A stretch of 35,285 bases of DNA from an uncultured Pseudomonadota bacterium (GTDB lineage: Bacteria > Pseudomonadota > Gammaproteobacteria > Burkholderiales > Rhodocyclaceae): the NCBI GenBank assembly GCA_903888645.1, contig CAISUK010000353.1, positions 1 to 35,285 of the forward strand, read 5' to 3'. Positions 1,035-25,638 of the stretch are shown here, piece by piece (the stretch's first letter is position 1; each line of letters opens with the position of its first letter). The notes beneath the pieces are model-generated. The model was not told where the DNA came from, searched no databases, and was given only the letters and a program-made list of their open reading frames with translations. The position numbers and the translations under genes were made by a program.

Positions 1035-1673
1035 TCAGCCCGGCAGTAGATTGTGATCCATGGCGTAGCGGACCAACGCTGTCAGATTGTCGAGATTCAT
1101 CTTGCGCAGCAGGCGCGTCTTGTGTGAGCTGATCGTTTTGGCGGAGAGCGATAGTTCTTCAGCGATCTGCGCGCCGCTCTTACCGCCGACGAGCATTTCG
1201 AAAACCTTGTATTCACGATTTGACAGTCGCGCATGCGGCGCCTTTTCGGCGCCTTTTCGGCTGAATTCCATCGCCAGGCGTTCGGCAATAATGGGACAAA
1301 TGTAACTGCCGCCGGCCGCGAGGCGGCGAACGGCGGCAACCAGGTGCTCGCCAGCATAGTCCTTGGTTATGTATCCCTGGCAGCCTGCATTTAGGGCCCG
1401 CGCCGCGTATTGCTCTTCGCGGTGCATGGTCAGTGCCAGTATTTTCAAGGTCGGCGCGATTCTGCGGATATTGCTGATCATCTCGATGCCGTCGCGTCCC
1501 GGCATCGTCAGGTCCAGCACAACCAGATCCAGCGCATGATCACGGATAGCCGCAAACACTTCGGCACAGTCGGCGGCTTGAGCGACGACTTCAAAGTCGA
1601 CCTCTTCACAGAGCAGCCAGACGACTCCCTGGCGGAACATCGGATGGTCGTCGGCTACGAGTAATCGGATCAT
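1035..1673 (-). CDS. NarL/FixJ-family response regulator (REC + LuxR HTH)
   Basis: MIRLLVADDHPMFRQG..., phospho-acceptor LVVLDLTMPGRDG, C-terminal LSNREYKVFEMLVGGKSGAQIAEELSLSAKTISSHKTRLLRKM HTH. Confidence 0.95.
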   Translation of the reverse strand: MIRLLVADDHPMFRQGVVWLLCEEVDFEVVAQAADCAEVFAAIRDHALDLVVLDLTMPGRDGIEMISNIRRIAPTLKILALTMHREEQYAARALNAGCQGYITKDYAGEHLVAAVRRLAAGGSYICPIIAERLAMEFSRKGAEKAPHARLSNREYKVFEMLVGGKSGAQIAEELSLSAKTISSHKTRLLRKMNLDNLTALVRYAMDHNLLPG

Positions 1674-3040
1674 TTCTGGACATCAATGGACGTTACGCCG
1701 GCGGTTGTCTGTGCCGGCGGAACTACGGGCAAAATCATCTTGATCGTGGTTCCCTGGTTCGGGCGGCTCTCTATGTCCAACTGCCCACCAAGGGCTTTCG
1801 CGCGCTGGCGCAACCCGAGCAACCCGCAGCGGCCGCGCTCTTCGGAATCGGCGGCCAGACCAAGGCCGTCATCAACGATGCAAAGACCGAGCGCACGTCC
1901 TGTGTGCCGGACGGTGATAAGGACTTTCTTCGCCGCAGCATGGCGAGTGATGTTGGTCAGACACTCCTGAACGCTGCGAAATACTGTTGTAGCAACGGCT
2001 TCAGCGCATTCGTCGACGGTTGGGTCGACTGTCGCTTCGCATGAAATGCCGGTTCGCTCGCTAAATTCGTCGGCCAGCCATTCGATTGCCTCGGCTAGGG
2101 GGCGCTCTTCGAGAATCAGTGGCCGCTTGGCGGCGACGATGCGGTGCGATTCGTCAAGGGTGTCGGCGATCAGAGTCTTCATGTGGCCCAGGCGGACTGC
2201 GCATTTCGCCGTGTCAGTTCCGATGCTGCGCTCCAGTGCCAGAATATCCAGCTTCAGCGCCGACAGGCTCTGCCCCAGCCCGTCATGCAACTCGCGGGCA
2301 ATCAACCGGCGTTCGTCTTCCCGAACGACTTGCAACTGATCGACCAGACCGCGCACCAGCATTCGAGCAGCGCCAGCCTGGTCCTGATCGGCGCAAGCTG
2401 TTGTCCGGCCGTCTGGGCGTGTCAACAGATATGCCATGTCCGCGGCCAGTTGTTTCAGCAAAGCCATGCACTCATGGTTAAGGAAGTAGGGTTCCCTGGA
2501 AAGGACTAGCAGGCGGCCGAGGGACTTGTCGCCACTTGCTACCGGCAGCGATGCCATTGCTGCGTGTCCCGCTGCCAAGACTTCCTGCAGCCATGGGTGA
2601 TCGGCTGTTTCCCTGCGCAGATCGTTGAATACCACGACATCAAGGCCATGCCCGCCAGCCTCGACAATCTCCGCGATGTGGCGGGAGACTTCCGCCGAAA
2701 AACAGCCCGGCCCCACTTGTCCGCAATAACACATGGCCTTGTTCGCGCAGCCGGTGTTCCCTGCCTGCAACGAAACAGACATGGCCGAGAATAGTCTGGA
2801 TTCGGCTGCCAAACGTGCAATGGATTCGAATAACTCGGCGTGACTGCCGGCGCGGATCATCGCCGCGTTGATGCGGCCAAACACGCGGTGAAGGCGAACC
2901 AGGCTGGCCATCTGGGGTTCGTGGTGCCGCTGGCTGTCCGCCTCATATACGCGCCGCCCCTTGCTGGTCGTGCCAACAAGCGTCAAAGCCGGGGCTTGGC
3001 GCTCGCTAAGGTGAATCAGCTGCTGCTCGGATACTCCCAA
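1670..3040 (-). CDS. Soluble GAF-domain sensor histidine kinase (HisKA_3/NarX-like)
   Basis: ERRLIARELHDGLGQSLSALKLDI (HisKA_3 H-box), FRSVQECLTNITRHAAAKKV (N-box), DDGLGL and GLLGLRQRAKALGG; no obvious TM segment; stop overlaps the response-regulator start. TTG start at 3040 or an internal ATG is possible. Confidence 0.9.
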   Translation of the reverse strand: MGVSEQQLIHLSERQAPALTLVGTTSKGRRVYEADSQRHHEPQMASLVRLHRVFGRINAAMIRAGSHAELFESIARLAAESRLFSAMSVSLQAGNTGCANKAMCYCGQVGPGCFSAEVSRHIAEIVEAGGHGLDVVVFNDLRRETADHPWLQEVLAAGHAAMASLPVASGDKSLGRLLVLSREPYFLNHECMALLKQLAADMAYLLTRPDGRTTACADQDQAGAARMLVRGLVDQLQVVREDERRLIARELHDGLGQSLSALKLDILALERSIGTDTAKCAVRLGHMKTLIADTLDESHRIVAAKRPLILEERPLAEAIEWLADEFSERTGISCEATVDPTVDECAEAVATTVFRSVQECLTNITRHAAAKKVLITVRHTGRALGLCIVDDGLGLAADSEERGRCGLLGLRQRAKALGGQLDIESRPNQGTTIKMILPVVPPAQTTAGVTSIDVQK

Positions 3041-3439: not shown

Positions 3440-5167
3440 ATGGCACCAGACAATCGGCAACAGGGGAATCGGCGCGGTCTTTTCGGACTATTTTTTGCGC
3501 TTACAGTCGCGGCATCCCTTCCCGCGATGGCGCAATCGTTCCGCGTGCAGTGTCCTGCTGGAACGGCGCTGCACCCTGCCATACCGGCCAATGATGGCAG
3601 CGTGGCGGTTGCGGACCGGGCGAAATACGCTACTGTCACTGCGCCGCTGCCCAGGACGGATGGCCTGCTCAACCCAACGCCGGCTATGGCCAACCCCGGG
3701 ATCAAGTGCCAGCAGTTGTCCGGCGGTGACGGCTTCGCCTCGATGGGCGACGGAACCCAGACTTACCTGTTCTCCTTCGGTCCGTTGTCTGGTCTCGGAA
3801 ATATCGTCAAGGGCCTGCCCGGAACGACGACAGCATCGGAGTTCCTCAAGAGCAACCTCGATAGCGCGAACGGGCCGCTCAGCACAGACGGAGTTTTGGC
3901 CGCAGTAAAGATCGGCGCTCCCGATAGTTTGAGTTATTCGTTCAACGGTGCCATCGGCTTGGTGCCGGACGTCCAGGCGGCTACCGTGCAAGACCCGACC
4001 ACCGGCCTCAATACGGCTCCCCTCGGTACCGAACTCACGGGCCACGTCGATCCGCGCCTGATCATGGATGTCGGCGTCATGAACGGCAACATTCCGGCGC
4101 CGATGATCGCCATCGACGAAGGTGATGAGCTCTTCCTGACGCTGACCAACGTTGGCATGATCATGCGTCCCGACCTGTTCGAGCAACACACCGTGCACTT
4201 CCACGGCTATCCGAACGCCTCGGCCTTCTACGACGGCGTGCCCGACGCCTCGGTGGCCATCAGCATCGGCGGCAGCTTTACCTACTATTACCTGGCGCCC
4301 GAAGCCGGGACCTACATGTGGCACTGCCACATTTCACCGCCCGAGCATTTGCAAATGGGCATGGTCGGGCAGTTGTACGTACGGCCCAGGCAGAACTCTG
4401 TCGCCTCCGGCAGCACGCTTTACGCGGCACTTAGCACCGCCAACCTGCCTGCGAATCTTGTGACCAAGTGCGGCGCCAACGACATTTTCTGTTCGACGCA
4501 AACGCCGCCGGCAAACACTGCAGCAGCCGACGGTCATCTGTACGCCTACAACGACGGCGACGGCACGACGGCCTATGACGTCGAGTACCCGATCCAGTTG
4601 ATGGGCTTTGATCCGAATTTCCACTTCGTCGGAATGACCTTCAACCCCGAATCCTTTGCCGACAACAAGGACAAGTTCTTCCTGGTCAATGGCCGCAGCT
4701 ACCCGGATACCATCAATCCGGCTCCGCTGAGCACGCAGGCGACCGACGGAACGGCGCACTTCTCCCAGCCCCTGCCGACGATCGTCAATATTCCCTGCCT
4801 CAGTCCGGCGAACGGTGTCTGCAGCGACGGCAAAGCACTGCTGCGGATCTCCGACCTCAACGTTACCGAGTACCACACCTTTGCCTCGCTGGGAATTCCG
4901 ATGCATGTGGTCGGTTACAACGCCCGCCTGCTGCGCGACGTCGACGGCAACAACACCGACTACAAAACGAACTCCGTCCACCTCGCCGGCGGCGAGTCGG
5001 CTGACGTAATCCTCGAAGCGGCCGGCGCCAGGCCCGGTCAGAAGTTCTATCTCTACGCGGCCGAACTCGATCACCTGTCGAACGACGCGGAGAACTTCGG
5101 CGGCATGATGACCGAGGTAAATATCTGTAGCGCCGGCGTCAACCCGACGACCAAGCTGTGCTTGTAA
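3440..5167 (+). CDS. Exported multicopper oxidase-like protein 1 (Cu motifs retained in N-terminal half)
   Basis: RBS AGAGGAGGT upstream; signal peptide LFGLFFALTVAASLPAMAQ; QHTVHFHGYP and GTYMWHCHISPPEHLQMGMVGQLYV copper-ligand motifs; C-terminal half has degenerate motifs (YHTFASLGIPMHVVGY, YAAELDHLSNDAENFGGMMTEV). Confidence 0.9.
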   Translation: MAPDNRQQGNRRGLFGLFFALTVAASLPAMAQSFRVQCPAGTALHPAIPANDGSVAVADRAKYATVTAPLPRTDGLLNPTPAMANPGIKCQQLSGGDGFASMGDGTQTYLFSFGPLSGLGNIVKGLPGTTTASEFLKSNLDSANGPLSTDGVLAAVKIGAPDSLSYSFNGAIGLVPDVQAATVQDPTTGLNTAPLGTELTGHVDPRLIMDVGVMNGNIPAPMIAIDEGDELFLTLTNVGMIMRPDLFEQHTVHFHGYPNASAFYDGVPDASVAISIGGSFTYYYLAPEAGTYMWHCHISPPEHLQMGMVGQLYVRPRQNSVASGSTLYAALSTANLPANLVTKCGANDIFCSTQTPPANTAAADGHLYAYNDGDGTTAYDVEYPIQLMGFDPNFHFVGMTFNPESFADNKDKFFLVNGRSYPDTINPAPLSTQATDGTAHFSQPLPTIVNIPCLSPANGVCSDGKALLRISDLNVTEYHTFASLGIPMHVVGYNARLLRDVDGNNTDYKTNSVHLAGGESADVILEAAGARPGQKFYLYAAELDHLSNDAENFGGMMTEVNICSAGVNPTTKLCL

Positions 5168-5178
5168 GGAGAACAGGG

Positions 5179-6786
5179 ATGAAAACCAATCAATCGCTCA
5201 AGTCGATCCTGCGGGCCGTGAATGTCGCAACGGTCTTCGTCGCGGCGACCTTCCTGTCACCGTCGACGCAGGCCGCTGCCCCGGGGATCACCGGGCCGAG
5301 CTTCGATCTGGTGGCGGTGGCGGGCAATATCAGCCAACCCGACGGCGCCACGATCTACTCCTGGGGCTATGGCTGCAACAGCGCGCCAGGCGGCTTCGCG
5401 CCTGCCGCCATCACCACTGCCACCTGCCCGTCAGGACAAATGCAGTTGCCCGGCCCCACTTTGATCGTCCACAAAGGCGACCAAGTCACGGTCACGCTAC
5501 ACAACAACCTCCCCGGTGCCGCTGGCAACACTTCAGTCCTGTTTCCCGGATTCAAGGTGACGGCGACTGGCGGCTCGCCTGGCCTGCTGACCCAAGAAGC
5601 CTCCAATATCAATGCGGTGACCTACACCTTCGTTGCCGATAGCGAAGGCACTCACTCCTACTACAGCGGTACCCAGGGAGACCTGCAGGTGGAAATGGGG
5701 CTGTTCGGGGCGCTGATCGTGCTGCCGAACTCGACGATCAACTCGCCGGCCTGTGCTAATACCCCGGTGAGCGCCGCGCAGCCGATCAATCGCGGTTCGG
5801 GGGTTCCTGGCGACTTCCGGCTGCCGGCGACCAACGGCGTCCACGCCGCCTACGACCAGGCGTCGTCCTGTTATGACCGCGAATACCTGATCCAGACCTC
5901 CGAGATCGATCCGCGTATCCATGAACAGGCCGCCGCGCAGGCCGGCATCGCTTGTACCTTACAGACCGGCTGCATGACGGTCGAGACCGAGCCCTACCAT
6001 GCGGCCTACTTCCTGATCAACGGCCGCTCGTTCCCGGATGACCTGGACCCCAATTACGCGCCGCAGTATCCGAACCAACCCTACAACGCCAACCCGCACC
6101 TGCATCCGGGCGAAGTCACGCTGGTACGGATTGTCGGCCAGGGCCGCATGCAGCATCCCTTCCACGAACATGCCAACCACCTGCGCATCCTGGCGCGGGA
6201 CGGTCAGATGCTGCTGAACAGCGCTTCCCACCTGTCAGGACCGCTGCTATTCACGACGACCACCAGCCCTGGCCAGACCATCGACGGCTTGTTCGAGTGG
6301 ACCGGCAAGAACCTCAACTGGGACGTCTACGGTCATGGCAATGGCATCGCCATGTCGGGTGGTGATGTCGATATTACCGATCCTGCGAAGCAATGCGACA
6401 CCAACGGCTATTTCACGTCGAATCCGGCAGCGAACAACTTCTTCGAATGGTGCGGAGATCACAAGAGGCCGCTCGAATTCAAACCCTTCGGCAGCGTTGG
6501 CAGCGGCGGTCCGGTGACATTGCCGGATCCAAACATCCTGGTGAACGGCGCCTGGTACGGCGGCAGTCCCTATCTGGGGCCGGATGCGACGGGACGCTCC
6601 GTCGGCCCGACACCGATACCGCCCTTTGGCACGGTCGCGAACAGTCCGAGTAGCGAGGCGGGTTTCGCTTTCATGTGGCATTCCCACAACGAACGCGAAA
6701 TCACCACAAACAACATCTTCCCGGGCGGGTTGATGACGATGATGCTGGTCGACCCTTGGGTCTTCCTGATCAACGAAGCGAATTAA
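5179..6786 (+). CDS. Exported multicopper oxidase-like protein 2 (Cu motifs retained in C-terminal half, no HCH Cys)
   Basis: AAGGAGAACAGGG-ATG start at 5179 (the ORF track starts at 5158); signal peptide ...VATVFVAATFLSPSTQAA; QLPGPTLIVHKGDQVTVTLHNNLP cupredoxin signature; RMQHPFHEHANHLRIL and FMWHSHNERE...GGLMTMMLV. Confidence 0.88.
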   Translation: MKTNQSLKSILRAVNVATVFVAATFLSPSTQAAAPGITGPSFDLVAVAGNISQPDGATIYSWGYGCNSAPGGFAPAAITTATCPSGQMQLPGPTLIVHKGDQVTVTLHNNLPGAAGNTSVLFPGFKVTATGGSPGLLTQEASNINAVTYTFVADSEGTHSYYSGTQGDLQVEMGLFGALIVLPNSTINSPACANTPVSAAQPINRGSGVPGDFRLPATNGVHAAYDQASSCYDREYLIQTSEIDPRIHEQAAAQAGIACTLQTGCMTVETEPYHAAYFLINGRSFPDDLDPNYAPQYPNQPYNANPHLHPGEVTLVRIVGQGRMQHPFHEHANHLRILARDGQMLLNSASHLSGPLLFTTTTSPGQTIDGLFEWTGKNLNWDVYGHGNGIAMSGGDVDITDPAKQCDTNGYFTSNPAANNFFEWCGDHKRPLEFKPFGSVGSGGPVTLPDPNILVNGAWYGGSPYLGPDATGRSVGPTPIPPFGTVANSPSSEAGFAFMWHSHNEREITTNNIFPGGLMTMMLVDPWVFLINEAN

Positions 6787-6802: not shown

Positions 6803-9800
6803 ATGACTTCCAAGAAAACCATGTTTGGCCTGATGCGTGCCGGTCTGGCTGCATGCAGTCTTCTCCTTGCCTCAGGTGCGGTGCAGGCGCAGAGCGCGGT
6901 CACGCTGACCGCGGCGCCGACCACCGCCAATCTGCCCGATGGACAGAGCGTGCCGATGTGGGGCTATATCTGCGGCGATTCCCTTGCGACGCCGGTGGCC
7001 TCGACAAATGCGACATGCACCTCGATGAATGGGGTGGGGCAGACCGGAAAGTCCTGGCAGCCGCCCTTGATAAGGGTTCAGGCTGGAACATCCGGGTTTG
7101 CATCTTTGACGATCACGCTGAACAACCAGTTGAGCTTTGCCGGCGTTGCCGTGCCGACGTCGATCGTCATCGACGGTCAGGCCGGTGGCGGCCTTGGCGA
7201 TTCATCGGCACGCATGCCGAGCCCGGCACACGCGCCTTACGGAACGACCTGGCCGGGAACGCTCGGCACCACCGGCCCGAACGACCCGGTTTTCACGCCG
7301 CCAGACCAGGGCCAAGGGCGCGTCCGCTCGTTCGCCACCGAGGTCGCGGTTGGGGCCACCACAAACAATGCTCTCACCTGGAACAAAATGCGTCCGGGTA
7401 CCTACCTGATTCATTCCGGCACCGAGCCGTCGATCCAGCATCCCATGGGCCTTTACGGCGTGCTGGTGGTCACCGAAACGACGGCGACCAGCGCCTACGG
7501 AACGGCTTACGATGCCGATGTTCCTTTGTTGTTCAGCGAGATCGATCCGGTCCAGAACAATGCGGTGACCGCGGCAGTAGGGACGACCGGGTTCAGCGAG
7601 ACCGACACTTGGGTCGGGCCGGGCGCTGCCTGCAAGAATGGTGCGGCCGCCTGCTATCCGCCGGCCGTCAACTATTCGCCGCGCTACTACCTGATCAACG
7701 GCACCTCCTTCGACCGCACCAATGTGACCGGGTCGACCCTCGTGGTGCCCGCTCCCGGCGTTAGCGGCAACGTGCTGCTGCGCATCGTCAACGCCGGCCA
7801 GCGCATGCATGCCCCGGCAGTCGTCGGCGCCAACATGACGTTGCTGGCCGAGGATGGCAACAAGGTTTCCGGTGGTACGCGCATCCAGGCCTCGGTTCCG
7901 ATGCCACCGGGCAAGACCTTCGATGTCGCGATTAAGCCCACCCAGATTGCGGCGGGTATCTATGATGCGGCGACGCTGCCCGTCTATGACCGCCAGCTCA
8001 GCCTGTCGACCAACAACCAGCGTGATGGAGGGATGCAGGCCTACATCGCGCTGAATGGCGGTGCCCCCTCAGGTGCCGGGTCCGCCGCCTCGGCGGTGGT
8101 CCTCAGCGCGGCCGACAAGACCTACTATTGCGTTGCCGGCACGACCCTATCGATTACGGACGTGTCCAAGGGCGTACTCGGCGGCGCCGTTGGCGCCAGC
8201 GGGGCATCGCTCGGCGTGGTGTCGCTGGGTGCCGGCGACAACTTGGCCTTCAACCCCGACGGAACCTTTACCTACGCGCCTGCTGCGGGAACGGTTTGCG
8301 GCGGCAGCTTTGCCTACAACGTCAATGGAACGCAAGCCCATACCGCAACCATCGCACAATGTGACGCGAATTCCTCAGCCGCAAGTGGATGCAAACTCGC
8401 TGCGGTGCCTGTCGCCAATGCAGTCACGTTCAACAGCAACGTCGCGTCGCGCTACGCTTCACCGCCTCCCGGCCTGATCGCCAGCGTCACCAACCTCTCG
8501 GGCTTGACCCTCAAAGTCAACGCGCCGACCAACGTTGTTGGCGGAACCGTAACGCTGAACGCCGACGGCTCTTTCGTCACAACGCGGTCGTGCACCGCGC
8601 CTTGCAGCGTCACATTCGCCTACAGCGTCAGCAACGCGCAGAACGTTTCTTCGAATTCGGCCCCGGTTACCGTCAATTTCCCAACGGGCAGCGGTTTGGC
8701 CGTTGCAGTCAAAGACGGCCCAACGGGCCTTCCGGTCAGCGACTATCGCTGGATCATCGAGGAAGACCGCACCTTCTGGGTCGACCCCAAGTGCCAGGTC
8801 AATTCAGCGGATCCACTGGTCCGTCCGTCGACCTGCCCGCCGCTGCCGGTGGAAAGCCTGGGCTACAACTTCCATTCCGCGCAAATGCCCGTCGTCGCGC
8901 AGGGTTGCGTCGGCACCGTTTCATGCGAAGCGGGCCAGAAGCTGCAAGGTCAGGACGCTGTATGCGATGTCGGCAACGGCGCCTGCCGCACCGGCGCAAC
9001 GCAGAAGACCCCGGTCAACCTCGCCGACGTCCATCTCGATCCGAACAAGCGCTACTTTGTCTCCATCCTCCCGGGCGACGGAATCAACCCGACCATTTCC
9101 GGTTACACCGGTACGCCGCAGGGTTGCGGCGCTTACACCGGCGCAACTGGCCAATGGGCGCTCTATGACCCGGCCTCCGGCAGTGCCGGCAATTGCGGCC
9201 ACGAAATGGGCGGTACGCAAGTGGCGCCGGGCGCGACAGCTATCGCCATCAACCTGCAGCAAACACCGCTGCCGAGCGCCAAGATCGCCGTCTTCGTGTT
9301 CGAGGACGACAATCCTGTGAACGGCGAAAACGATGCCGGTGGCGGCGTCGACGTGATCGCCCCGAACGAGCCTGGCCTCGGTGGTTTCGAGATCAAGTTG
9401 TTCGACCAGGCCGGCCAGCTTGGCGACAACACCGGCCAGATCACCTATGACATGTTCAACCAGCCGGTGAGCAACTCCTTGGCAGGCTTCATCGATCCGC
9501 TGACCAATCTCGACGCCTGCCCGATCACCGCGCGCAAGGACGGAGTGGTCGGCATGGTACCGACTTGCCCGAAGTTCGAGGCGGACGGCAAGACGCCATC
9601 ACCGCTGGCCGGCCAAGCCGTGATCGCCAACCTCTACCCGGGTCTCTATGAAATCCAGGCCTACCCGGCGGCCGACCGCATCGCCAAGGGCGAACAATGG
9701 TTGCAGACGAATACCCTCGATGGCGGCAAGCCGCACGAGGCCTTCATCAAGCCCAATGAGCCCGGCTACTTCCAGGAATTCGGTCCTGGCGGCTTCCACG

Positions 9801-17311: not shown

Positions 17312-17631
17312 AGCACCTTGCGCGCTTGAAAAGGGATATGGAAATGAATGAATCGAATGGTGCGTATCTTCGTCGGGAATGGTACCGCAACGGGTTGGCA
17401 GGCCTGATTGGAGCGGTCGTCTTGGTAGGCACAGCGGCGGGCGGCGAAAACCCAGTGGTGGACGGGGCGAGCGAGAATGCCAACGCGGCATCCCGCGTGT
17501 CTCCGCACGCGCTTGCTGCCCTGCGGCGAGCGCAGCAGGGTGACGCTTCTGCGCCCCGGGTCGGTCTCCAGTCGCAGATGCAGAAGGACGCGGCGCGGCG
17601 TCACCTCGCCCCAGGCAGACGCGGTACTTGA
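17308..17631 (+). CDS. Small membrane-anchored or exported hypothetical protein
   Basis: ATGA overlap with upstream gene; hydrophobic NGLAGLIGAVVLVGTAAGG; overlaps downstream CDS. Confidence 0.55.
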   Translation: MKHLARLKRDMEMNESNGAYLRREWYRNGLAGLIGAVVLVGTAAGGENPVVDGASENANAASRVSPHALAALRRAQQGDASAPRVGLQSQMQKDAARRHLAPGRRGT

Positions 17632-18194
17632 CCATGGGTGCGTTTTCGTCGTTCACCGGTAGACGCTGCTTCTCCTTCATGGCGGCGATGGTCGGCGCAT
17701 TGTGGGCGGCGACTGCCCTGGCGGGGGGTGCCGCGGAGCAGTCGCCAGTCGCACCGACGAATCCACCTGCCGAGGCCCACGGGAATGCCGGAGGCGCAGC
17801 GTCTGCCCAGGCGAGGCATTCTCCCTACCACTCGATGAGAATGACCGACAAGGCGAAAAAGCAGTATGTGGCCATGTGGGGCGTCAATAAATTGCGTGTG
17901 AGCTCGACCAATTCGGGCAACCTGATCCGTTTCACCTATCGGGTCGAGGATCCGGTGCTGGCCAAGACGCTCCTCGACCGTAGCGCGACGCCCTATATGT
18001 ACAGCCCCAAGGCGCAGGCCGTACTTCAGGTGCCGGTCATGGACAAGGTAGGCCCGCTGCGTCAGTCGATGTCGCCAAAGGCAGGCCAGGATTACTGGAT
18101 GGTGTTTTCGAACAAGGGAAACCTTGTCAGGCCGGGCGACCGGGTCGATATCCGGATCGGCACGTTTCAAGCCGATGGCCTGATGGTTGATTGA
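17628..18194 (+). CDS. Exported conserved-looking hypothetical protein
   Basis: Signal peptide FSFMAAMVGALWAATALAGG; mature part MWGVNKLRVSSTNSGNLIRFTYRVEDP...DYWMVFSNKGNLVRPGDRVDIRIG; overlaps upstream stop (TTG 17628 or ATG 17634 start). Confidence 0.65.
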   Translation: MTMGAFSSFTGRRCFSFMAAMVGALWAATALAGGAAEQSPVAPTNPPAEAHGNAGGAASAQARHSPYHSMRMTDKAKKQYVAMWGVNKLRVSSTNSGNLIRFTYRVEDPVLAKTLLDRSATPYMYSPKAQAVLQVPVMDKVGPLRQSMSPKAGQDYWMVFSNKGNLVRPGDRVDIRIGTFQADGLMVD

Positions 18195-18228: not shown

Positions 18229-18990
18229 ATGAAAATGAAATTGTCGATTGCCGCTTGTCTGATTTCGCTGACGACCTCGGTCGCCCTGGCTGACACGCTG
18301 ACCGCGGCACAGATAGCCGACCGCAACGTGGCGGCCCGGGGCGGGGCGAACGCGTGGCGGACGGTCACTAGCATCACCATTTCCGGCCAAATGGATGCCG
18401 GCGGCGAGCAAGAAGCCAAACTACCTTACGTGCTGACCATGAAGCGTCCGCACAAGAGCCGCCTGGAGCTGCGATTCCAGGATAAGGCTGCCGTCCAGGT
18501 CTTTGACGGCACGCAGGGCTGGAAATGGCGTCCATTCCTCGGCCGCAACGAGGTCGAGGCATACTCCGCTGCCGAGACCAAGTCTGCTGCCGACGCCGCG
18601 GAGCTGGACGGTCCGCTGGCCGACTACGCCAAGAAAGGGACGGCGATCGAACTGCAGGGAATGGACAAGGTCGAGGGCAACCAGGCCTACAAGCTGAAAC
18701 TGACGATGAAAGACGGCAGTGCCAGGCACCTTTGGATCGACGCCAAGACCTTCCAGGATGTCAAGATCGAAGGTGAGCCGCGCCGCATGGATGGCAAGTT
18801 GCGCAACGTTTTCGTCTATAGCCGCGACTTTCGCAAGGAGGGTGGCCTGACCGTCCCCCATGTGCTGGAGACAGCGATCGAAGGCATCGCCCAGACGCAC
18901 AAGATGACCGTTGACAAGGTCGCCGTCAACCCGCCTGTCGACGACGGCATGTTCGGCAAGGCGACAGTCCAGGTGGCCAGTTCGCGTTAA
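18229..18990 (+). CDS. LolA-like / outer-membrane lipoprotein-sorting-type periplasmic protein (paralog A)
   Basis: Signal peptide MKMKLSIAACLISLTTSVALA; LTAAQIADRNVAARGGANAWRTVTSITISGQM; beta-rich periplasmic protein with GTQGWKWRPF. Confidence 0.7.
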   Translation: MKMKLSIAACLISLTTSVALADTLTAAQIADRNVAARGGANAWRTVTSITISGQMDAGGEQEAKLPYVLTMKRPHKSRLELRFQDKAAVQVFDGTQGWKWRPFLGRNEVEAYSAAETKSAADAAELDGPLADYAKKGTAIELQGMDKVEGNQAYKLKLTMKDGSARHLWIDAKTFQDVKIEGEPRRMDGKLRNVFVYSRDFRKEGGLTVPHVLETAIEGIAQTHKMTVDKVAVNPPVDDGMFGKATVQVASSR

Positions 18991-19138: not shown

Positions 19139-19981
19139 ATGTTCATGACATTTGGGCGGGGAGCCTTGCTGGCGCTCCTGGCAGTGGCGCTGACAAGCCA
19201 GGCGGCCAACGAGGTGTCGCTGACCGCGGAACAGATCGTGGAGAAGAACGTGGCGGCGCGCGGCGGGCTCGACGCGTGGCGCAAGATCGGGACGATGGCC
19301 TGGCTAGGCCATGTCGAGACGCCGAACGTGCCGGGCGGGTCGATGCCCTTCATCCTTGAGTTCCGGCGACCCAACCAGACCCGATTCTCGGTCGATCCGC
19401 AGGGGCAACCCGGCATGCGCGTCTTCGACGGCAGCAACGGCTGGAAGGTGCGACCTGCCGGTAACGGGTCGGCGGACGTTCAGCCCTACGCGAACGAGGA
19501 ACTGAAGGCGGCGCGCGATGGCGCCGGTCTCGACGGGCCGCTGATCGACTACCAGACCAAGGGCATCGGCGTCGCCCTCGACGGCCCCGATAACGTCGAC
19601 GGACAACCGGCCTATCGCCTCCTAATCAAGTTGCCATCGGGCAGTCGCCAGCATGTCTGGGTGGACGCCAAGACCTTCCTCGATATCCGTTCCGACCGCG
19701 AGGCGGTCGACAAGCAGGGTCGCACTGGCATCATCTGGACGTCCTACCGGAATTTCCAGTCAGTCGACGGCCTGCGGATTCCGATGACGATCGAACGCAG
19801 CGCAGCGGGCGCCAAGGTGACAGACATGATGGTCATCGACCGCGTCGTCCTCAATCCGGATATCCATGCGCAGGCCTTCGCCAAACCCGATGTGCCGGTG
19901 GCGCGGCGCAAGGTGGTGGTCGATGCCCGCAAGCCGCCACCTGGCGCACGAGACCAATCCGGCGCGACCGGTGCCAGGTGA
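19139..19981 (+). CDS. LolA-like / outer-membrane lipoprotein-sorting-type periplasmic protein (paralog B)
   Basis: LTAEQIVEKNVAARGGLDAWRKIGTMAWLGHV aligns by eye with paralog A; GSNGWKVRPA; signal peptide at N-terminus. Confidence 0.7.
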   Translation: MFMTFGRGALLALLAVALTSQAANEVSLTAEQIVEKNVAARGGLDAWRKIGTMAWLGHVETPNVPGGSMPFILEFRRPNQTRFSVDPQGQPGMRVFDGSNGWKVRPAGNGSADVQPYANEELKAARDGAGLDGPLIDYQTKGIGVALDGPDNVDGQPAYRLLIKLPSGSRQHVWVDAKTFLDIRSDREAVDKQGRTGIIWTSYRNFQSVDGLRIPMTIERSAAGAKVTDMMVIDRVVLNPDIHAQAFAKPDVPVARRKVVVDARKPPPGARDQSGATGAR

Positions 19982-21624
19982 TGACGGCGGGATTGGCGGT
20001 TCGCCACGGGTTGCTCGGCATAGTATGGGCGCTGGCCGCATCGACCAGCGGTTGGGCTGCCGCGACGCTACCCGACAAGGTCGGCGAAGCCATCTTCCGG
20101 CAAGGCATGTTGGCCTCAGGCCAAGCACTGGTGGGAACCCGCGCTGCCGACACCCGCGTTGCGGGTGCGGCGGCGGCCTGCGTCAATTGCCATCGGCGCA
20201 GCGGCCTGGGCTCGAAAGAGGGGCGAATTGACATTCCGCCCGTCACCGGGCGCTATCTGTTTCATGCGAGCTCCGAGAAATCTGACGATGTTGACCTTCC
20301 TTTCGTCGAGACCATGCGCATCAATCGCGAAGCCTACACGGACGAGGCCCTCGCCCGGGCGATACGTGAGGGGCTGGACGTGCAAGGAAAGCCGCTGGGC
20401 GACCTGATGCCACGTTTCGAACTCGGCGACAAGGACATGGCCGGCCTGATCGCTTACCTAAAGGGGATGGACCATCCCCGGCAGCCCGGGGTCACCAGCA
20501 CGGTTCTGCATTTCGCCACCATCATCACGCCGGACGCCGATCCGCTCAAGCGTCGCGGCATGCTCGACGTGCTGGAAAACTACTTTGCCAGCCGCAACCG
20601 GGTGCAGATGGCTCCAGGCGCGCCATTGCGCGCTTCACGCAAGATGATGTTCATGGTGCATCGCCGCTGGCAATTGCACGTCTGGGAGCTGACCGGTCCA
20701 GCCGAAGCGTGGGAAGACCAACTCAGTAAGCATCTGGCCGCGGAGCCGGTGATGGCGGTGATCTCGGGTCTGGGCGGGCGCAACTGGGCGCCCGTCCAGG
20801 CCTTCTGCGAACACCAGTCGGTGCCCTGTTTCTTTCCCAATGTCGAAGTGCCGCCGGCCAACGCCGACAGTGATTTCTACTCGACTTATTTTTCCCAAGG
20901 CCTGCTGCTGGAGGCAGCCTTGATCGCCAAGCGGGTTCTCGATCCGGCAGGCGAAAAGGCGGTCATGTCGGTGCTGCAGGTCTACCGCGCCGGCGACAGC
21001 GGTGAGGCAGCAGCAGCGTCCCTCGCCGCGGCGCTGAAGAATCGCGGTATCACGGTCCGCAGCCATGTATTGGCCAAAGTCTCGGCGGGTCAGGAGGTCG
21101 CCGCTGCGGTGCGCCAGGCCAAGCCCGCCGATGTCATGGTCCTCTGGCTGCGCCCGCCCGACCTGGCAGCGCTTGGCAGTGCCACGACGGTCCCGGATAC
21201 GGTCTATCTGTCCGGCCTGATGGGCGAACTCGAACACGCGCCGCTGCCTGCCGATTGGCGGGAGCGCAGCCATATTGCCTACCCGTTCGATTTGCCTGAG
21301 CGGCGCCGTGTGCGTGTCGATTTTCCGCTCGGCTGGTTCCGCATGAAGCAAATCCCGGTCGTCGATGAACGTCTGCAGGCCGATACCTACCTCGCCTGCG
21401 GCTTGGTGGCCGAAACCTTGAGCCACATGACCGACGCCTTCATCCGCGACTATCTGGTCGAGCGGCTTCAGGACATGCTTGCGCACCGCATCATCACCGG
21501 CTATTACCCGCGCCTGGCGCTCGCCCCGGGCCAGCGCTTCGCTTCCAAAGGTGGTTACATCGTCCGTTTCGCCCAGCCGAGCGGGCCGCAGGTGGTCGCT
21601 GAAGGCGACTGGATCGTGCCCTGA
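19978..21624 (+). CDS. Exported monoheme cytochrome c fused to a periplasmic-binding-protein-like domain
   Basis: Single CXXCH (CVNCHRRSG), downstream LMPRFELGDKDMAGLIAYLKGM typical of class I cytochrome c axial Met region; then ~370 aa alpha/beta region (TVLHFATIITPDADPLKRRGMLDVLENYF...). Overlaps the upstream stop; likely ATG at 19981. Confidence 0.8.
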   Translation: MMTAGLAVRHGLLGIVWALAASTSGWAAATLPDKVGEAIFRQGMLASGQALVGTRAADTRVAGAAAACVNCHRRSGLGSKEGRIDIPPVTGRYLFHASSEKSDDVDLPFVETMRINREAYTDEALARAIREGLDVQGKPLGDLMPRFELGDKDMAGLIAYLKGMDHPRQPGVTSTVLHFATIITPDADPLKRRGMLDVLENYFASRNRVQMAPGAPLRASRKMMFMVHRRWQLHVWELTGPAEAWEDQLSKHLAAEPVMAVISGLGGRNWAPVQAFCEHQSVPCFFPNVEVPPANADSDFYSTYFSQGLLLEAALIAKRVLDPAGEKAVMSVLQVYRAGDSGEAAAASLAAALKNRGITVRSHVLAKVSAGQEVAAAVRQAKPADVMVLWLRPPDLAALGSATTVPDTVYLSGLMGELEHAPLPADWRERSHIAYPFDLPERRRVRVDFPLGWFRMKQIPVVDERLQADTYLACGLVAETLSHMTDAFIRDYLVERLQDMLAHRIITGYYPRLALAPGQRFASKGGYIVRFAQPSGPQVVAEGDWIVP

Positions 21625-22227: not shown

Positions 22228-22962
22228 GCCAAGAGCATCCTGTCGTCAGATCGGCGAAGTTCGCTAACTCAGTGGTCCTCCCGAGTTTATCCGGGCGGAA
22301 CTCCATGCCAGGATGCCGCAGCAGGGAAGGCCGTGTCGTTTTGAATCACTACGCTAGCGCTTTCAGAAGGCGAATACTCTTCGTCACACGGAATTGCGCG
22401 CTCTTCGTATTTGCGCACGCGAACCAGTTCTGCTTCCAGAGATCAACATCCTCGGCCGACCTGCATGCCGCAATGGTTTTCCATACAGCCACGTGCTCTG
22501 GATAGGAGAACGCAATCGCCGACCCCGTCACGAAGTCTTTATTAGCCGAGTCAGAGAAGGTCAGCACCTAAACTCGAGCGGCAGGTTCAGGATCAGAAAG
22601 CTGCCTTTGAATTTGAAATTGTCACCAGGCCGCAGTGGGTCGGACTGAGCCACTGAGCATCACCCCCAAGTGAAACGCCAATAGCATTGTGCGCTGCATT
22701 ATTTTTTGTCAATCACGATATCCGGATCGTCGTTTTCATAACGCCAAGCCAGCAGATTCGGAATCTCACTGTGCTCATGGCAGGCGACAGACTCGGAAAT
22801 GTATCGGAACCCGGTCCAACGACTCCAAGCATGATTGATAAGTAGATTGCCGAATGGGCAGGATTGATGTTGAATGGCTACCATCATCTTTGAACCCGCT
22901 GGCCGTAGCTGATGTCCAATCTGACCATGGCCAAGGTCCGATCTGCCCCTTGGAGGGACACC

Positions 22963-23421
22963 ATGATTCAACTCAACGTTAACGGCAAAACTCATCAGGT
23001 CGATGTCGAGCCGGATACGCCGCTGCTTTGGGCATTGCGCGATACCCTGCTTCTGACCGGCACCAAGTATGGCTGTGGTCAGGCGCTGTGCGGCGCATGC
23101 ACCGTGCATGTCGATGGTTCGCCACTGCGTTCCTGTACCACGCCCGTCTCGGCGGTGATTGGCCGCAAGATCACGACCATCGAAGCCATCGACGCCAACC
23201 GTGTAGGCAAGGCGGTGCAGGAAGCGTGGCGCAAACTGGACGTGGTTCAGTGCGGTTATTGCCAGTCAGGCCAGATCATGAGCGCCGTAGCGCTGCTGAC
23301 CAAGAACCGAAAACCCAGCGACGCCGATATTGACAATGCCATGTCCGGCAACCTGTGCCGTTGCGCTACCTATGTGCGCATCCGCGCGGCGATTCATGAA
23401 GCAGCCAAGGCCCTCGGCTAG
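22963..23421 (+). CDS. iorA: (2Fe-2S)-binding subunit of molybdenum hydroxylase, isoquinoline 1-oxidoreductase alpha-type
   Basis: [52 protein letters not shown] and [16 protein letters not shown]...[15 protein letters not shown]. Confidence 0.93.
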
Positions 23422-23430
23422 GAGAACACC

Positions 23431-25638
23431 ATGAGCGAATTTGCCATCGAAAACCTCAGCCGGCGCAATTTCTTGCAGGGTAGCGCCGGGCTGACCCTGG
23501 GATTCTGTCTTCCCGCATTGGCAACTGCCGCTGGCGGCCCAGGCAAGGCCGCTGACGGTATCGTGGGCGCCAGCAACTTTGAGCCAAACGCCTTTTTGCG
23601 CATCGGTGCCGACAATACCGTAACGGTGTTTTCCAAGCATCTGGAAATGGGTCAGGGCACCTACACCGGACTGGCCACCATCGTCGCCGACGAACTCGAT
23701 GCGGACTGGAAGACCGTGCGCGTCGAAGCTGCAGCTGCCGACGCCAAGCGCTACAACAATCTCTTGTGGGGTCCGGCACAAGGGACCGGCGGCAGCACCG
23801 CCATGGCCAATTCCTGGGAACAGATGCGCAAAGCCGGGGCTGCCGGTCGCGCCATGCTGGTCAGCGCCGCAGCGCTCAAGTGGAATGTTCAGGCCAGCGA
23901 AATTTCGGTGCGCGACGGCGTTGTCCGCCATGCCGCAACCAAACGCTCCGCGACCTTCGGCCAACTGGCCGCGCTGGCCGCTGCGCAGGCTGTGCCTGGC
24001 GAGGTCACGCTCAAGGATCCGAAGGATTTTCGCCTGATCGGCAAGCAGGCCAACCGCAAGGACAGCGTCGACAAGACCAACGGCAAAGCCCAATTCACCC
24101 AGGATGTGCATTTGCCGGGCATGCTGGTGGCACTGGTGGCGCATCCGCCGCGCTTCGGTGCGACCGTCAAGTCATTCGATGCCGGGCGCGCCAAGGCAGT
24201 TCGCGGTGTCGTTGATGTCGTGCAGATTCCACAAGGCGTGGCTGTGTTGGCAAAAGACACCTGGAGCGCCAAGAAGGGTCGCGACGCGCTCGGCGTAAGC
24301 TGGGACGAAAGCGCCGCCTTCAAGCTGGGTAGCGATGACATCCTGGCGCAGTACAAGGAACTGGCCAAGACGCCCGGCCTGGTGGCCAAGCAGATCGGCG
24401 ATTCGACGGCCGCCTTCACCAAGGCGGCGAAAGTTGTGCGCGCCAGTTTCGATTTCCCGTATCTCGCCCACGCCGCCATGGAGCCGATGAATTGCGTCAT
24501 CCGGCTGACTGCCGATGGCTGCGAAGTCTGGAATGGCGAGCAAATGCACACCGGCGACCAATACGCGCTGGCGGCACTCTTCGGTCTCAAGGTGGAGCAG
24601 GTAAAGATCAACACGCTGTATGCCGGCGGCAGCTTCGGCCGGCGTGCCAGCAAGGATTCCGACTATGTGCTGGAGGCTGCGCAGATCGTCAAGGCGATCG
24701 CCGGCAAGGCGCCCGTCAAGCTGGTCTGGCTGCGCGAGGACGATATGCGCGCGGGTTATTTCCGGCCGCTCTTCCACCATGCCATGGAGGCAGCGCTGGA
24801 TGGCAGCGGCAATATCACGGCGTGGCGTCACCGGCTGGTTGGGCAGTCGATCGTCGCCGGTTCGCCGTTCGAAAAGATGCTGGTCAAGGATGGTGTCGAC
24901 GCGGTCTCGGTGGAGGGTGCGGCCAATCTGCCTTACGCGATTCCCAATCTCACGGTGGAACTGCACACGCCGACCAACATCATGGTCCCGGTGCTATGGT
25001 GGCGCTCGGTCGGTTCCTCGCATACGGCATATTCTACCGAAACTTTTTTCGACGAACTGGCGGCGGCGGCCGGCAAGGATCCGGTGGCGCTGCGCCTCGA
25101 ACTGCTCGCTGAACACCCGCGCCACGCGGGCGTTCTCAAACTGGCCGCCGAAAAGGCCGGCTGGGGAACCACACTCAAATCCGGTAAAGCCGGCGAACGG
25201 CGCGGTCGCGGTATCGCGGTGCATGAATCGTTCAATTCCTATGTCGCCCAGGTGGCCGAAGTCACGGTTAAAGCCGACGGCACCATCAAGGTGGATCGCG
25301 TCGTCTGCGCGGTTGATTGCGGTGTCGCCATCAACCCGGACAATATTCGCGCGCAGGTCGAAGGCTCGGTCGGTTTCGCCCTCTCCGCGGCGCTGCACGG
25401 CGAAATCACGCTTCGCGAAGGACGCGTGGAACAAGGTAACTTTGATAGTTATCCAAGCTTGCACATCGGCGAAATGCCCGCTGTCGAGGTCCATATCGTG
25501 GCGTCGACCAAGGCGCCAACCGGAATTGGCGAACCGGGGGTACCCTCTGTGGCACCGGCCGTCGCCAACGCAATCGCCGCTGCGACCGGCAAGCGCTGTT
25601 ATCGCCTGCCCTTCAGGCCGGCCGATCTTCTTGCCTGA
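23431..25638 (+). CDS. iorB: Molybdopterin-binding subunit of aldehyde/xanthine dehydrogenase family, isoquinoline 1-oxidoreductase beta-type, Tat-like signal
   Basis: [22 protein letters not shown] Tat-like leader; [104 protein letters not shown]. Confidence 0.93.

Follow-up and report, generated by a model that had tools for sequence, protein, structure and literature searches.

A putative heterotrimeric multicopper oxidase with copper ligands divided between two gene products in Rhodocyclaceae and other bacteria

Here we describe three adjacent genes, termed P1, P2 and P3, in a DNA stretch of 35,285 nucleotides from an uncultured Rhodocyclaceae bacterium (contig CAISUK010000353.1 of assembly GCA_903888645.1; this whole stretch is called the window below). 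Judged by profile comparison, P1 and P2 are paralogous two-cupredoxin proteins related to the type C two-domain multicopper oxidases (2dMCOs), and a third unit of the same kind, P3N, forms the N-terminus of P3. The eight His residues of a trinuclear copper centre are found solely in domain 1 (D1) of P1 and domain 2 (D2) of P2, as two HxH motifs in each protein and none in P3. We propose that P1, P2 and P3N, as three diverged protomers, assemble into a pseudo-threefold heterotrimer with one trinuclear centre, and assign this reading a probability of roughly 0.7, its assembly, stoichiometry and copper loading being deduced from sequence.

In the proposed enzyme, D1 of P1 would meet D2 of P2 at one of three interfaces, where the eight His residues would bind a three-copper cluster that reduces O2. 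Electrons would enter at the type 1 (T1) copper of P1, held by His250, Cys296, His303 and Met308, and then pass via the His295-Cys296-His297 bridge. Of the three interfaces in the ring P2, P1, P3N, one (P2-D2/P1-D1) would form a complete site and the others (P2-D1/P3-D2 and P3-D1/P1-D2) would be empty and structural, and the long C-terminal part of P3 probably holds the enzyme at the cell surface. The heterotrimer is the best model because the trinuclear centres of 2dMCOs lie between subunits: these enzymes are homotrimers, in which the centre is formed where domain 1 of a protomer meets domain 2 of its neighbor (PMC13151041, PMC3192119). By the distribution of ligands, a homotrimer of P1 or of P2 could not build a full site, and very probably the enzyme is functional only when different proteins are joined in one complex.

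Copper ligands retained and lost in P1 and P2

The three genes are co-directional, with intergenic gaps of 11 and 16 bases, and the N-termini of all three products are signal-peptide-like (Table 1). For P2, a GTG start at 5158 is possible; the ATG at 5179 was chosen from the alignment and the ribosome-binding site. Cupredoxin or multicopper oxidase (MCO) domains of Pfam score above the cut-off in P1 and P2, and the Cu-oxidase domain of P3 is sub-threshold; no MCO family of NCBIfam reached its cut-off for any of the three. Models of the three-domain enzymes (CopA, CueO, laccase) failed, with P1 at 42 bits against a cut-off of 479 for CopA and P2 at 33 against 525 for CueO.

Domain 1 of P1 (approximately residues 88-318, with an insertion) carries the T1 ligands and two HxH motifs. 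HTVHFHG aligns with HTIHWHG of the type C 2dMCOs, and HCHISPPEHLQMGM aligns with HCHVNVNEHVTMRGM of 3g5w. Domain 2 of P1 (approximately residues 370-565) has lost its ligands: GIPMHVVGYN aligns in hhalign with both HPFHEHANH of P2 and FHLHGHD of the type C enzymes, and the former ligand sites of the domain are occupied by Ile/Val, Thr and Asn in nearly all loci examined. In P2 the pattern is reversed, with a ligand-free domain 1 and a domain 2 that has both HxH motifs of a trinuclear centre and lacks the T1 Cys, Ser502 standing at that position. HPFHEHANH is aligned with HAIHTHG of 3g5w; MWHSHNERE is aligned with FHDHVDTHVTAGGKHPGG of 2zwn at a very weak local score, the HSH lying in the same context as its 2zwn counterpart and being followed by a conserved PGG.

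These observations are in agreement with the initial annotation of the window, which credited P1 with HFHG and a second motif (about 4319-4363) in its N-terminal half and with neither HPxHxH nor HCH in its C-terminal half, and P2 with SVLFPGF and YYSG in place of its N-terminal HxH motifs, with retained HPFHEHANH and HSHNERE, and with Ser instead of the type 1 Cys. Its further proposal, that the two chains jointly supply four HxH motifs and one T1 site, was borne out wherever the sequences can be read in the 84 loci described below.

Table 1. Features of the window, with predicted copper ligands and the sites at which ligands have been lost
Feature	Position	Strand	Description	Basis
P1	3440..5167	+	575 aa, secreted two-cupredoxin protein, type C 2dMCO-like	translation, profile alignment
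P2	5179..6786	+	535 aa, secreted two-cupredoxin protein	translation, alignment
P3	6803..16744	+	3313 aa secreted protein; N-terminal 2dMCO-like unit, then cadherin-like, beta-helix and choice-of-anchor domains	
P3N (third 2dMCO-like unit)	6890..8092 (approximate)	+	no copper ligands	hhalign, PDB profile matches
HTVHFHG of P1	4187..4207	+	His250 (T1); His253, His255 (trinuclear centre)	
HCHISPPEHLQMGM of P1	4322..4363	+	His295, His297 (trinuclear centre); Cys296, His303, Met308 (T1)	
GIPMHVVGYN of P1	4892..4921	+	site of lost first HxH, domain 2	hhalign
LYAAELDH of P1	5051..5074	+	site of lost second HxH, domain 2	alignment
NTSVLFPGF of P2	5527..5553	+	lost first HxH, domain 1	alignment
YYSG of P2	5659..5670	+	lost HCH motif, domain 1; Ser163 and Gly164 in 84/84 loci	
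HPFHEHANH of P2	6154..6180	+	His329, His331 (trinuclear centre); His326 where the T1 His sits	
MWHSHNERE of P2	6673..6699	+	His501, His503 (trinuclear centre); 84/84 loci	
Small secreted protein	17628..18194	+	188 aa; relative in 40/48 loci with enough flank, downstream of P3	
Two tandem LolA-like proteins	18229..18990 and 19139..19981	+	conserved in cluster	
MofC-like protein	19978..21624	+	cytochrome c and probable periplasmic-binding domain, MofC-like architecture; start codon uncertain; weak Cytochrom_C match	

Conservation and co-occurrence

With P2 as query, 85,462 species genomes yielded 244 relatives, the best 80 of which were fetched and, together with four further loci, form the 84-locus set. 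The best 80 come from Burkholderiales (Paraburkholderia, Burkholderia, Cupriavidus, Collimonas, Pandoraea and Trinickia), from Sideroxydans and other proteobacterial metagenome-assembled genomes (MAGs), and from many Acidobacteria. The order P1-P2-P3 on one strand was observed in 80/80 of them, with neighbours cut by contig ends in a few. All 12 ligand positions are invariant in the 84 loci wherever they can be read, and the lost sites, including those of P2 domain 1, remain lost; thus chance is rejected as the origin of the motif pattern. The ligands of HTVHFHG are found in 82-83 of the 84 loci, the remainder being gaps, and those of HCHISPPEHLQMGM and HPFHEHANH in all; the T1 ligands are present in 82-84 of 84 in P1, and in neither P2 nor P3. 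At GIPMHVVGYN the second ligand site is Ile or Val in 84/84. The reciprocal loss is therefore conserved from Burkholderiales to Acidobacteria.

The same split position in every locus rules out a single gene broken by a frameshift or an assembly artefact, and no natural P1-P2 fusion occurs among the loci examined. Separate searches with P1 and P2 in 398 genomes of the order retrieved the same seven genomes (Fisher p 3e-15, uncorrected for relatedness), and in a 399-genome sample of the phylum both queries retrieved the same two genomes, with one weak match in addition for P2. The latter (G476) belongs to a different family and was set aside: a single chain holds the type C motif set together with an extra cupredoxin domain. 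In four of the retrieved genomes that are new to the analysis, the ligands and the third unit are again present, with accessory genes. The P1-to-P2 direction of this comparison covers Pseudomonadota, and Acidobacteria are covered by the P2-based scan. No homolog of P1 or P2 occurring alone, or carrying all four motifs, was found in the loci and genomes searched. The suggestion that homologs always co-occur with reciprocal ligand loss was upheld by these seven of 398 genomes and by the 84 loci.

The third unit and alternative explanations

By profile and pairwise alignment, P1, P2 and P3N are each composed of two cupredoxin domains and homologous to 3g5w and 2zwn. Among solved structures, the P1 profile matched the type C 2dMCOs 3g5w and 2zwn best, the top three for P2 were 3gdc, 3g5w and 2zwn, and the N-terminus of P3 matched proteins of the 2dMCO or copper nitrite reductase type, including 4kns and 3g5w. 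Against the type C 2dMCO of a related genome (L004), hhalign gave an E-value of 7.6e-19 for P1, 4.4e-17 for P2 and 8.7e-6 for P3N. The T1 and trinuclear ligands in domain 1 of this type C enzyme align with those of P1, and the first HxH of its domain 2 with HPFHEH of P2, the corresponding positions being empty in the other unit. The three units are mutually homologous (P1 versus P2, E=1e-18; P2 versus P3N, E=2.5e-35), with P2 and P3N the closest pair.

The two-chain active centre proposed in the initial annotation is supported by the reciprocal loss, the co-occurrence and the type C alignment; the proposal was incomplete, however, as the third, ligand-free unit had been missed. None of the true P3 sequences in the 84-locus set has an HxH at a ligand site; two apparent P3 proteins with HPFHEH (L084 and L108) are really P2 reading frames, picked up where the contig end cuts P3. 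In the window, P3 fuses the MCO-like unit to cadherin-like, parallel beta-helix and choice-of-anchor Q and D domains. The third unit is a stand-alone gene of approximately 650 codons directly after P2 in G094, G547 and G646, and we conclude from these three genomes that it is retained for its own sake. The beta-helix protein of G094 is a separate gene upstream of P1 (L022, 5345-10381).

The third unit bears directly on the best-surviving alternative, in which a P1-P2 dimer or a (P1P2)n ring forms the heteromeric site and P3N, outside the ring, is a relic or serves for attachment. All ligands do come from P1 and P2 and none from P3N, which has also diverged furthest (mean column identity 33%, and the weakest type C match). 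Nevertheless, P3N directly follows P2 in every locus, and a free domain would have less cause to keep the full two-domain fold. Since the unit is kept even apart from the giant surface protein, we regard the heterotrimer as likelier and the dimer as an unlikely arrangement.

Besides 2dMCOs, P1 and P2 also match copper nitrite reductases. A copper nitrite reductase holds its type 2 copper on single His residues of domain 1 and one His of domain 2, whereas P1 carries MCO-type HFH and HCH pairs and empty ligand sites in domain 2. This difference weakens a second alternative, namely that the proteins form separate homotrimers without a shared trinuclear centre, P1 being a blue-copper electron carrier or a nitrite reductase-like protein with a partial second site, and P2 a metal-binding scaffold. 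Although 2dMCOs are naturally homotrimeric (PMC13151041), four invariant HxH pairs would then each be a half-site, and the ligand loss is reciprocal rather than random, making such homotrimers quite improbable. Finally, it is highly improbable that the three are degenerate, inactive MCO relatives serving as surface or adhesion structures, as the giant repeat-containing, surface-type P3 and the label 'hypothetical protein' on all three in an annotated Paraburkholderia record might suggest, given that T1 and trinuclear ligands are strictly conserved over two phyla and that genes for the copper chaperone SCO1 and cytochrome c are linked.

Several points weigh against the heterotrimer itself, a complex predicted from primary structures. 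Perfect co-occurrence, expected of any operon, demonstrates joint function and not contact. P1 is as near to the type C 2dMCO as to P2, so that hhalign gives no proof that it arose by duplication together with P2 and P3. The insert between the two HxH motifs in domain 2 of P2 (approximately residues 340-490) is far longer than in 2zwn or 3g5w. Moreover, monomer AlphaFold models of P1 and P2 are poor (mean predicted local distance difference test scores 53 and 55); as confidence is low in the ligand-bearing domains, which are the worst, they were not used for site geometry. A Foldseek search with the predicted models placed 2zwn first for P2, and 3g5w and 2zwn in the top ten for P1, at low TM-scores.

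Gene neighborhood and known systems

The conserved neighbors downstream of P3 are listed in Table 1. The 188-aa secreted protein, which matched no Pfam or NCBIfam family, possibly belongs to the P1-P2-P3 complex. Relatives of the MofC-like protein occur in loci L024, L029, L057, L109, L110, L136, L137 and L139. In Cupriavidus metallidurans CH34 (L109), where the locus lies on the chromid, the type II secretion genes GspF, GspE and GspD and pseudopilins precede the set, and the small conserved secreted protein, two LolA-like proteins, the MofC-like cytochrome c protein, SCO1 and a peptidyl-prolyl isomerase (PPIase) follow it. Neither a copper oxidase nor a laccase turned up in a term search of the main text of the paper describing the CH34 genome (PMC2864759). 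Type II secretion genes were observed near P1 in 14 of the 64 loci with more than 5 kb of upstream sequence, and SCO1 is within reach in 8/80. The window's own draft genome encodes a close GspD (47% identity) and SCO1 (50%), both on other contigs.

The proximity of MofC-like, SCO1, PPIase and type II secretion genes suggests that the P1-P2-P3 enzyme may be an extracellular metal oxidase. More speculatively, and guessing from the neighborhood, the substrate could be a metal ion outside the cell, for example Mn(II) or Fe(II). If this context is meaningful, common soil bacteria, among them the model strain CH34, would have in the complex a candidate system, as yet uncharacterised, for oxidising metals extracellularly.

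A divergent LuxR-type response regulator and a GAF-domain histidine kinase (1035-3040) adjoin P1 in the window, and similar two-component genes are found near loci L029, L105, L109 and L110. Further downstream, 22912-25638 encodes the 2Fe-2S and molybdopterin subunits of an aldehyde/isoquinoline-type oxidoreductase, for which the sequences flanking the other loci showed no relatives. The Sideroxydans locus contains a GspD-type secretin with a C-terminal cohesin domain (L105:2284-4665).

The likeness to the mof/ompB cluster, one of architecture, lies in the MofC-like, SCO1 and PPIase (as MofB) genes; all three accessory types are present in CH34, and the MofC-like gene also in the window. A similar accessory set accompanies MofA and OmpB (PMC5566968), and, to judge from the title of a study cited there (Mehta et al. 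2006), OmpB is exported via type II secretion. The same paper notes a tandem of three MCO genes in Sideroxydans lithotrophicus ES-1, accompanied by mofC-like and chaperone genes, and treats the three as MCOs, with no ligand analysis in the text. The Sideroxydans MAG (L105) carries P1-P2-P3, SCO1 and type II secretion genes, and the ES-1 cluster is likely a member of the same putative family.

A search limited to open-licence papers found no heteromeric or heterotrimeric MCO; the described trinuclear centres that we found are all built from a single gene product, as monomer or homotrimer. We consider it reasonably likely that P1-P2-P3 is a hetero-oligomeric MCO of three diverged protomers, with one trinuclear centre at a single hetero-interface and one catalytically empty protomer; it would be, to our knowledge, the first known. 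The MnxEFG complex of Bacillus (PMC5622069) is likewise a multi-protein multicopper oxidase, but MnxG alone is an MCO there, MnxE and MnxF being unrelated accessory proteins.

The type C 2dMCOs of Nitrosomonas europaea (3g5w) and of metagenomic origin (2zwn) share with the system described here two cupredoxin domains per protomer, a T1 site in domain 1, and two HxH motifs in each domain, and their centre is known to lie between protomers. However, their protomers are identical, with all four HxH motifs in one chain and three active sites, whereas in P1-P2-P3 the ligands are spread over two gene products, the third protomer is empty and one site is expected. Six-domain MCOs (MofA/OmpB, MnxG, ceruloplasmin) have six cupredoxin domains, one trinuclear centre and degenerate other interfaces; P1-P2-P3 shares the total of six domains and, as counted from its ligands, the single trinuclear centre and the degeneracy of the remaining interfaces. 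They are single chains, while here each of three genes contributes two domains. In prokaryotic six-domain MCOs, moreover, T1 belongs to domain 2, and the trinuclear centre is formed between domains 2 and 3, a type B-like layout (PMC3600357). Since P1 carries its T1 in domain 1, the P1-P2-P3 layout represents a different, type C-like solution.

If the proposal is right, the complex is a living counterpart of the step, hitherto a hypothetical ancestor, between homotrimeric two-domain and single-chain six-domain MCOs. With a trinuclear centre that seemingly needs two distinct proteins plus an empty third, the proposed route from a 2dMCO homotrimer to a ceruloplasmin-type six-domain protein becomes directly testable. 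By this comparison, the putative P1-P2-P3 enzyme would apply, on three separate chains, the logic of ceruloplasmin and MnxG, with a single active interface among the three.
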